A model generated the notes under the pieces. The model was not told the DNA's origin. It ran no database searches and saw only the letters and a list, made by a program, of their open reading frames with translations. A DNA stretch of 64,000 bases. It comes from Deltaproteobacteria bacterium PRO3. GTDB lineage: Bacteria > UBA10199 > DSSB01. The first letter of the stretch is position 1; every line of letters begins with the position of its first letter. The position numbers were made by a program, and so were the translations under genes. The stretch is taken from NCBI GenBank assembly GCA_030263375.1, contig SZOV01000001.1, forward strand, positions 1 through 64,000. The letters run 5' to 3'. Below are positions 1 through 2,213 of this stretch, in pieces.

Positions 1-129
1 AGCTGGTTCGCACGAAAATTTAGGGTCTTCCTTCGTCAGCCCCTAAATTTTGTGCTCTCTCAGCTTTTTTTCCGCTCCTACGCCCTCCCTCCTGCCTGAC
101 GGTCTGGGAGAGGGTATCGCCTCACGGCC
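1..129 (-). ncRNA. Structured RNA element, copy M (3' part outside the window)
   Basis: Read on the minus strand, this repeats the plan of the element at 437-625. In 5' to 3' order it has a 29-nt outer arm (129 to 101), an unpaired G-rich block (100 to 76), a middle-stem arm (75 to 61), AGAGA (60 to 56), GCAC pairing with GTGC (13 to 10), and an 11-bp apical helix (51 to 41 with 25 to 15). The 15-nt apical loop GCTGACGAAGGAAGA and the GAAC strand follow. All unpaired blocks match the other copy exactly, while the apical helix and visible middle helix differ by paired changes. The sequence stops inside the middle stem at base 1, so the outer 3' arm is not seen. I know no family with this plan. 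Confidence 0.6.
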
Positions 130-436
130 TCCGATATAGTTTTAAAGAAGAAACCCAATCGAGTTCCTCAGTAAAACACTACCGCCCCCCAATCTGCGGA
201 GGGGTGAGAATCTTCAACCCTCACAGACTTGGCAAAATCGACCGGCCTTTTCATATTTAGGTCGGCATAAAATGAATTGAATTTCAGTCGATATCCGTGG
301 GCCAGCGTCCAAAAATCGAACACTATTCAAATTCTAAAGATCCATTTCGTCCCATATTGTTGTCCTCTTCCGTTTTTTTTCGGGCTGAAATCCGATTTTG
401 TGGGCTTAGAAAACTAATCCTCGATTTCGACTCCTA
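130..436. other. Spacer between the two divergent RNA elements, no gene seen
   Basis: About 300 bases, more AT-rich than the neighbouring genes, separate the 5' ends of the two structured elements. I see no convincing reading frame. The geometry makes it the natural place for divergent promoters reading into each element. On the minus strand the stretch near 135-155 holds TTGGGT and TATATC, but at a spacing shorter than usual, so no promoter is claimed. Confidence 0.4.
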
Positions 437-625
437 GGCCGGGAGGGGATGTGGTTCTTCAGACCGTCAGGCAGGAGGGAGGGCGTAGGAGCGCTAAAAA
501 GGCCTAGAGAGCACTCCAGTTAGAGGCTGACGAAGGAAGACTCTAACTGGATGTGCGAACAGGCCTTTTTAGTGCGAGTAGCCCGACCGGGCCGTAGGTC
601 TGAAGAACCACATCCCCTCCCGGCC
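437..625 (+). ncRNA. Structured RNA element, copy P (complete, about 189 nt)
   Basis: A perfect 29-bp outer helix (437-465 with 597-625) closes a large asymmetric internal loop. Its 5' side (466-490) is G-rich and identical to the other copy. Its 3' side (576-596) can form a small GCCC-GACC-GGGC hairpin at 581-592. A 15-bp middle helix follows (491-505 with 561-575, one G-U pair), then an internal loop AGAGA/GAAC (506-510, 557-560) and a GCAC/GTGC helix (511-514, 553-556). The tip is an 11-bp helix (515-525 with 541-551) with the 15-nt loop GCTGACGAAGGAAGA. Compared with copy M, loops are invariant and helices covary. It ends 58 bases before yifB, so it could be an independent RNA or a leader. 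Topology loosely recalls 6S RNA, but I see no 6S sequence signature. A DNA-level mobile repeat is the main alternative. Confidence 0.7.
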
Positions 626-683: not shown

Positions 684-2213
684 ATGCCCATCGCCACCCT
701 ACTCTCCGCCGGCCTCCAAGGCATCGACGCCACCCCGATCCACGTCGAGGTCGATATCACCCGCGGCCTGCCCGGCTGGTCGACGGTCGGCCTGGCGGAG
801 AGCGCGGTCCGCGAGTCGAAGGACCGGGTCATTTCGTCGATTCATAACTGCGGCTATCAATTTCCCTTCCGGCGCATCACCCTCAACCTGGCCCCCGCCG
901 ACGTCAAGAAGAGCGGCACGGCCTTCGACCTGCCGATCGCGATCGGCCTCTTGGCCGCGGCCGAATTGCTTCCGGTCGAGTCGCTCCAAGGCTACGGCTT
1001 CCTGGGCGAGCTCTCGCTGGACGGGGGCCTCCGGCCGATCCGCGGCGCCCTCTCCGCCGCAGCCTTGGCCAAAGAAAAGGGCTGGCGCGGCCTGATCCTG
1101 CCCCTCGAGAATCTCCACGAGGCCGGCCTCATCCCGGAGGTCACGGCCTTGGGCGCCCGCAGCCTGCCCGAGGTCGTGGAGTTCCTGAAGGGCCGCGGTC
1201 CCCTTCCCCTGGCGACGGAGCTCCCACCGCCCCGCCCTCCCAAAGCGCCCCACCTGCCGGACCTCGCCGAAGTCCAAGGCCAGGGCCACGCCAAGCGCGC
1301 CCTCGAGGTCGCCGCCGCCGGCTTCCACAACCTGATGATGGTGGGCCCGCCCGGCACCGGCAAGACGCTCCTGGCCAGCTGCCTCCCCTCGATCCTGCCG
1401 CCGATGAGTCGCGAGGAGAGCCTGACCACGACGAAAATCTACAGCTTGGTCGGCAGGCTCCCGCCCGAGACGGGCCTGCTCACCGAGCGGCCCTTTCGCG
1501 CCCCGCACCATACGATCTCGGAAGCCGGCCTGATCGGGGGCGGCGGCGTCCCGAGGCCCGGCGAGGCGAGCCTCGCCCATAACGGGGTCCTGTTTCTGGA
1601 CGAGATCGGCGAATTCAAGCGCCACGTCCTAGAGGCCCTGCGCCAGCCCTTGGAGAGCCACGGGGTGACCATCGCCCGGGCCCGGCACAGCCTGAGCTAT
1701 CCGGCGCGCTTCCTGCTGGCCGCCGCAATGAACCCCTGCCCCTGCGGCCATCTCGGCAACGCCCGCGTCCCCTGCGTCTGCCCGCCGGCCTCGGTGCAGC
1801 GCTACCAAAGCAAGGTCAGCGGCCCGCTGCTGGACCGTTTCGACCTGCGCCTGACCGTCCCCGCCCTCGATTTTGCGGCCTTGAAGGCGAACGCGCGGGG
1901 CGAAAGCAGCCGCGAGGTCCGCGAGCGCGTCGCCCGGGCCCAGGAACGGCAAAGCCGCCGCCTGTCGGGAGAGGGCCTGTCCTTCAACTCGCAGATGGGA
2001 CCGGCGGAGCTGCGGAGGCATGGACGCCTGGACGCGGCCTCGGAGGAATTGTTGAAAACGGCGGTGGAAAAATGGGGTTGGTCGGCGCGGGCCTATCATC
2101 GGGTCTTGAAGGTGGCGAGGACGATCGCGGATCTGGCGGGAGCGGAACGGATCGCGGCCGAGCATCTGAGCGAGGCGATGGCCTATCGCTCGGAGGAGGC
2201 GCAGCCAGTTTAA
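684..2213 (+). CDS. yifB: YifB/ComM-type Mg-chelatase-family AAA+ ATPase
   Basis: The 509-residue product begins MPIATLLSAGLQGIDA and runs into the family's N-terminal S5-fold ChlI-like domain (EVDITRGLPGW, TVGLAESAVRESKDR). The Mg-chelatase AAA+ core has Walker A GPPGTGKT near residues 222-229 and Walker B VLFLDEIGEF near 300. A cysteine cluster NPCPCGHLG and a C-terminal helical Mg_chelatase_C region (ARAYHRVLKVARTIADL) follow. Homologues such as ComM act as branch-migration helicases on recombination intermediates during natural transformation. I chose the ATG at 684 because family homology starts there; an upstream GTG at 627 would add 19 residues with no family match. No clear Shine-Dalgarno sequence precedes it. 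Its end overlaps the stop of the convergent small gene by 4 bases. Confidence 0.93.
   Translation: MPIATLLSAGLQGIDATPIHVEVDITRGLPGWSTVGLAESAVRESKDRVISSIHNCGYQFPFRRITLNLAPADVKKSGTAFDLPIAIGLLAAAELLPVESLQGYGFLGELSLDGGLRPIRGALSAAALAKEKGWRGLILPLENLHEAGLIPEVTALGARSLPEVVEFLKGRGPLPLATELPPPRPPKAPHLPDLAEVQGQGHAKRALEVAAAGFHNLMMVGPPGTGKTLLASCLPSILPPMSREESLTTTKIYSLVGRLPPETGLLTERPFRAPHHTISEAGLIGGGGVPRPGEASLAHNGVLFLDEIGEFKRHVLEALRQPLESHGVTIARARHSLSYPARFLLAAAMNPCPCGHLGNARVPCVCPPASVQRYQSKVSGPLLDRFDLRLTVPALDFAALKANARGESSREVRERVARAQERQSRRLSGEGLSFNSQMGPAELRRHGRLDAASEELLKTAVEKWGWSARAYHRVLKVARTIADLAGAERIAAEHLSEAMAYRSEEAQPV

Follow-up and report, generated by a model that had tools for sequence, protein, structure and literature searches.

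Integron attC sites are folded single-stranded DNA with a variable stem and conserved extrahelical bases. REPINs, among the closest described systems to the element reported here, occur as inverted doublets in 93% of 430 cases (PMC3116915). The TnpA(REP) and IS200 enzymes bind folded single-stranded DNA in a strand-specific manner, by way of its loops, bulges and mismatches (PMC8266576).

The element described here, E1, is a real and previously undescribed lineage-wide family of folded intergenic hairpins of about 200 bases. Two of its copies, M and P, stand at the beginning of the window (the whole 64-kb stretch of DNA that was analysed, from genome G000). The best reading, on balance, is that M and P form a single non-autonomous mobile doublet, REPIN-like and recognised as a folded single strand, of which each is one arm. 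Pairs of E1 hairpins are likely to be small mobile DNA elements, not a single non-coding RNA gene of the ordinary kind.

Two copies of one element

P lies on the plus strand (437–625) and M on the minus strand (1–129). Between the two the loops are invariant and the helices compensated. Their parts are listed below, where A1 is a sequence-based alignment of E1 within the order, A5 the alignment across the phylum, and R1 a covariance model built from 23 E1 copies.

437–625 (+): copy P of E1, a complete hairpin with perfect 29-bp outer arms, a fold z of −14 and a core match at 466–596
437–465 (+): 5' arm of the P outer stem, 100% complementary to 597–625; the copies differ here in sequence, with pairing maintained
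466–490 (+): conserved G-rich internal-loop strand GTCAGGCAGGAGGGAGGGCGTAGGA (A1, A5), with CGTA(T)GAG as its best-conserved portion
491–505 (+): 5' strand of the middle helix, partner of 561–575, with double changes in 10 of 15 pairs (A1)
506–510 (+): second internal loop, AGAGA, which faces GAAC at 557–560
515–525 (+): 5' strand of the apical helix, partner of 541–551
526–540 (+): apical loop GCTGACGAAGGAAGA, of which TGAC..GAGG is kept phylum-wide
541–551 (+): 3' strand of the apical helix, partner of 515–525, with covariation in A1
561–575 (+): 3' strand of the middle helix, partner of 491–505
576–596 (+): 3' internal-loop strand GAGTAGCCCGACCGGGCCGTA, with GA.TAG conserved
597–625 (+): 3' arm of the P outer stem, partner of 437–465
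1–129 (−): copy M of E1, its 3' part absent; R1 match at 1–100 (−) with 88 bits, cut at the 3' end
26–40 (−): apical loop of M, with the same letters as in P
101–129 (−): 5' outer arm of M, assigned from sequence; in the G002 orthologue it pairs with its own 3' arm
130–436 (no strand): spacer that separates M from P at their 5' ends, the inside of a 5'-to-5' doublet that is one of 18 divergent neighbour pairs out of 18

M is incomplete because contig C1 of G000 starts at window position 1. In the sister species G002 (JADYZQ010000052.1, a MAG named 'Deltaproteobacteria bacterium') both copies are found at the same place and M is complete.

The outer arms of P (437–465 and 597–625) are complementary at 29 of 29 positions. 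Its predicted fold has an energy of −137.9 kcal/mol (z = −14 against dinucleotide shuffles), and its core at 466–596 scores 141.5 bits with R1. M is an inverted copy, 84% complementary to P over 101 nt. In the whole 64 kb the apical loop GCTGACGAAGGAAGA has two exact matches only, at 26–40 (−) and 526–540 (+); the chance expectation at up to two mismatches is 0.13. Directly downstream of P lies comM (window 684–2213, +).

The initial annotation had described M and P as two copies with invariant loops and compensated helices, and direct comparison of their letters bears this out. Its counts of 10 differences among the 29 positions of the outer arm and of five double changes in the 11-bp apical helix are both reproduced.

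Distribution and copy number

To speak of two copies understates the case, as E1 is a dispersed family, one of several hairpin cores that occur in many copies. BLAST finds at least seven copies in G000 itself, on contigs C1 (two), C93, C80, C49, C40 and C32, together with a fragment on C15. About 17 copies occur in G004, from the same taxonomic family, and about 55 distinct copies in G007, from the same order. Assemblies break at copies of E1 and of a second repeat family, E2, as at the contig ends of C1, C32, C93 and C40 of G000 and in many contigs of G004. Copy numbers are therefore lower bounds.

Of the 46 genomes of the phylum, 14 have E1 according to the covariance model R1; with stricter filters, the model detects it in none of 339 genomes from outside the phylum. 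Some genomes hold dozens of copies and close relatives hold none. Plasmids and IMG/VR, searched by exact pattern or blastn only, gave no match. Two contig pattern matches (L031 and L032) score 13 bits or less and were rejected as E1. Rfam 15 contains no match to E1 at the gathering threshold and no credible match at permissive thresholds, in keeping with the earlier remark that no known family has this layout.

Covariation and the strand that probably folds

Within the order, double changes occur in 28 of 41 pairs and 98% of cells are paired (A1). Sliding by one to three columns leaves 31–54% paired, and none of 500 shuffles reached the observed values. Across the phylum, double changes are found in 31 of 33 pairs (A5). 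The bases conserved at this distance are CGTA(T)GAG on the 5' internal-loop strand, TGAC..GAGG in the apical loop and GA.TAG on the 3' strand. The outer arms are the most variable region of E1, yet they remain paired.

Selection on a folded single strand, as the initial annotation had proposed, is supported by loops that are conserved in the 14 genomes of the phylum and helices that change. Nothing that the initial annotation had named as contrary evidence was found.

Isolated mismatches in the outer stem, counted as distinct events, are G.T or T.G in 19 cases and A.C or C.A in 3 (p = 0.0009). In the core the corresponding counts are 6 and 1, and the raw totals are 45 and 9. By strand symmetry the two kinds should be equally frequent unless one strand folds or mutates differently, and the plus strand of E1 is therefore most likely the strand that folds. 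G.T (G-U) pairs make up just 0.7–0.9% of the stem pairs of E1, a share that is low for RNA families. Mismatch asymmetry and the low G.T share together leave RNA and single-stranded DNA unseparated.

Several of these features would suit a transcribed structured non-coding RNA, or more than one, with a fold selected as RNA and with copies made by duplication or by carriage on mobile DNA. The invariant loops are purine-rich, their bases are conserved through the phylum, and G.U exceeds A.C on the plus strand. Against such an RNA stand the share of G-U pairs, well below that generally known from RNA families, and the contrast between genomes with dozens of copies and close relatives that lack E1.

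Doublets and genomic placement

Copies of E1 or E2 no more than 450 bp apart form 18 pairs (in G000, G002, G004, G007, G016 and G020), and all 18 are arranged 5' end to 5' end. Seventeen of these pairs are independent, because M/P of G000 and M/P of G002 represent the same site. Of 55 E1 copies, 24 have a further long hairpin, of any family, no more than 250 bp away on their 5' side, and none has one on its 3' side. The gap between the stems of a G007 doublet is about 25 bp, which leaves little room for two divergent promoters.

E1 is intergenic and has no sense bias to the flanking genes (22 copies antisense, 15 sense, 11 convergent and 6 divergent). A cis-regulatory UTR element was rejected, since E1 has no orientation to genes. 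The strict 5'-to-5' doublets, with spacers as short as about 25 bp, and the lack of sense bias both count against the RNA explanation.

Broken copies and possible compensation by mutation

Not all copies are intact. In G002 the middle helix of P is interrupted by an insert. On contig C38 of G004, an element with a 325-aa transposase (L165, about 1080–2140) interrupts an E1 copy at its apical helix; from the translation, we take this element to be of the IS30 type. L165 was rejected as an autonomous E1, as the sole ORF-bearing copy seen is this IS30-type transposase inserted into E1, and no autonomous E1 copy was found. Both broken copies speak against a selected RNA.

The outer stem of P differs between G000 and G002 at one place, where T455-A607 is replaced by C-G. 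This compensated change could represent one template switch, or selection before the insertion. Template switching has been reported as a source of compensated changes in RNA hairpins (PMC8794818). Part of the compensation in E1 may likewise be mutational, an alternative absent from the initial annotation.

In its strong form, this alternative makes compensation mainly mutational: template switching between the arms keeps long palindromes perfect, and the fold is little selected. It agrees with the compensated outer-stem change in P, the middle helix of which is interrupted in G002, with perfect stems of 29–45 bp that have few G-U pairs, and with the precedent in RNA hairpins. The strong form is nonetheless improbable, for it leaves the invariant loops and internal-loop strands, the one-strand mismatch asymmetry and the 5'-to-5' doublets unexplained. 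Template switching can be a contributing process at most.

Probable exchange of cores and further hairpin families

A census of long hairpins reveals several core types. E2 is a second undescribed structured repeat family, with a three-way junction, the loops CACCTTRARGC and CGGCYTGAGG, and no Rfam match. Its copies are as follows.

L105, 2261–2421 (+): E2 copy
L166, L167, L168, L169, L173: E2 copies in G002
L146, L171: E2 copies in G001
L100, L104: E2 copies in G004

Double changes occur in 29 of 35 pairs of the E2 alignment A4, which is 92% paired. A loop-loop contact co-varies perfectly: at one pair, 7 of the 14 copies have A-U and the other 7 have G-C. This is a further point in favour of RNA.

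E1 and E2 have common ends within a genome; in G004 these are GGTCGGGG, with GTAG just before. At the L105 site G000 carries E1 and E2; in G001 the position of E1, between the same flanks, is occupied by a single E2-type hairpin whose outer stem is related. The position that M takes between trxB and comM in G000 and G002 is filled in G001 by E2, in the same orientation as M. In three species, hairpin elements have landed repeatedly in this trxB–comM intergenic region.

G007 contains more multicopy long-hairpin families with other cores (L180–L199), some of which have the outermost stem of E1, GTCTTTTCGAGG. In some outer stems of E1 or related hairpins in this genome, the apical or inner part is swapped for an unrelated palindromic repeat, TGTCATTGCGAG. 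These replacements suggest that hairpins insert into hairpins.

L180, 973–1158: example of a further G007 hairpin family
L181, 16623–16802: example of a further G007 hairpin family
L183, 9703–9851: example of a further G007 hairpin family
L182, 3257–3474: G007 hairpin with TGTCATTGCGAG replacement
L188, 12555–12727: G007 hairpin with TGTCATTGCGAG replacement
L189, 6140–6360: G007 hairpin with TGTCATTGCGAG replacement
L196, 7955–8188: G007 hairpin with TGTCATTGCGAG replacement

Different cores with common ends within a genome would also be found if the E1 doublets were conventional MITEs, bounded by the terminal inverted repeats of a DDE transposon and structured only incidentally. Their size, intergenic placement and long stem-loops match those of bacterial MITEs (PMC2229807). 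Terminal repeats read by a DDE transposase, however, should vary least of all, and in G000 no part varies more than the terminal arms. The aligned flanks, where junctions are not base-precise, gave no recognisable target duplication, and the lone ORF-bearing copy is the IS30-type insertion rather than an autonomous element. Conventional MITEs are a very improbable explanation.

A probable mobile doublet

Reading M and P as the arms of one mobile doublet is supported by multicopy dispersal, patchy and lineage-restricted presence, the doublets, the strand asymmetry and same-site exchange. Of the initial proposal, folded RNA or folded single-stranded DNA, the folded strand stands. Its wording 'structured RNA' is not supported: the multicopy hairpin cores, the strict 5'-to-5' doublets, the lack of gene orientation, the broken sites and the scarcity of G-U pairs fit mobile DNA folded as a single strand, the second option of the initial annotation, at least as well as a transcribed RNA.

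On the other side, the compared loci revealed no instance of transposition, no exact empty site and no target duplication, and the internal-loop architecture of E1 is so elaborate as to be more typical of RNA. The three genomes with the most copies (G004, G007 and G016, 98–99% complete) have no RVT_1 match to a reverse transcriptase, which argues against an RNA-copied element such as a retron or an intron-like element. Judged from sequence, a transcribed RNA is a plausible but rather unlikely explanation.

Each arm of the proposed doublet is one large imperfect hairpin (E1), and the arms point outward with their 5' ends towards each other. The plus strand would fold when single-stranded, most simply on the lagging-strand template. 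An enzyme that reads the unpaired bases of the folded strand could then bind and move the doublet, by analogy with TnpA(IS200/IS605) and TnpA(REP), the hairpins of which are far smaller than E1. E1 doublets would in this way transpose. Selection for folding may account for part of the near-perfect pairing of the outer stems, and correction by template switching in the course of replication for another part. The structured core within the stem would be exchangeable, giving E1, E2 and others with common ends.

More tentatively, these hairpins may represent a new class of mobile DNA: large folded strands arranged head to head, with a common outer stem, exchangeable tertiary-structured cores and a putative enzyme that reads folds of about 200 nt. 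Should the reading as a mobile doublet be correct, selection would act on folded single-stranded DNA of RNA-like complexity, and covariation, commonly taken to prove a functional RNA, would in this case largely be a sign of mobile DNA. The reading would also point to a strand-specific enzyme yet to be found in an uncultured phylum. Orthologous and paralogous E1 copies would then form natural series for a direct test of the long-standing question whether compensatory changes originate from selection or from template switching.

Comparison with known systems

Structured multicopy bacterial non-coding RNAs. E1 has covariation and conserved loops, like the families of this kind in Rfam. It differs from them in the absent Rfam 15 match, the near-absence of G-U pairs and the doublets.

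MITEs. Correia/NEMIS, ERIC, RUP and CIR are intergenic repeats of 100–200 bp that form long stem-loops, as E1 does. E1 differs in its systematic double changes in stems, its invariant loops and variable terminal arms, and its occurrence as 5'-to-5' doublets of different cores.

Integron attC sites. E1 also combines a variable stem with conserved unpaired bases, but it is found outside cassette arrays, is larger and is paired 5' to 5'.

IS200/IS605 subterminal hairpins. Recognition of a folded single strand through its unpaired bases would, by analogy, explain the conserved loops and strand asymmetry of E1. Unlike IS200/IS605, E1 consists of two large outward hairpins on opposite strands with no ORF between them, and is far larger.

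REPINs and BIMEs. Like these RAYT-associated REP doublets, E1 is intergenic, occurs in many copies as inverted doublets with short spacers, is strand-specific and has unpaired bases that matter. Its arms measure about 190–240 bp, compared with 20–40 bp, and no RAYT is linked to it; it also has three conserved internal or apical loops, freely changing stems and exchangeable cores. To our knowledge, E1 has five to ten times the length of any known REP. The hairpins of REPs and REPINs carry GTAG (or CGTC) at their foot. In G004, the only genome consistent in this respect, GTAG lies directly 5' of the outer stem in most copies of E1 and in the E2 copies; it is absent in G000, G007 and G016.

RAYT (Y1_Tnp) genes are present in 38 of 46 genomes, many of them without E1, and their presence is uncorrelated with that of E1. 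In 20 RAYT neighbourhoods inspected from 9 genomes, E1 is never adjacent to the RAYT gene and is missing altogether from 19; one RAYT of G016 lies about 2 kb from an E1. RAYT linkage of E1 was rejected on these neighbourhoods. Several of those inspected carry short REPs of their own. On contig C5 of G000 (L259, 3806–3903), a short REP of their own, GACGGAGGTTTGA, flanks RAYT genes, and that genome thus has a REPtron distinct from E1. In size and in its lack of linkage E1 departs from the REP/RAYT system, and it is therefore described as working like a REPIN rather than called one.
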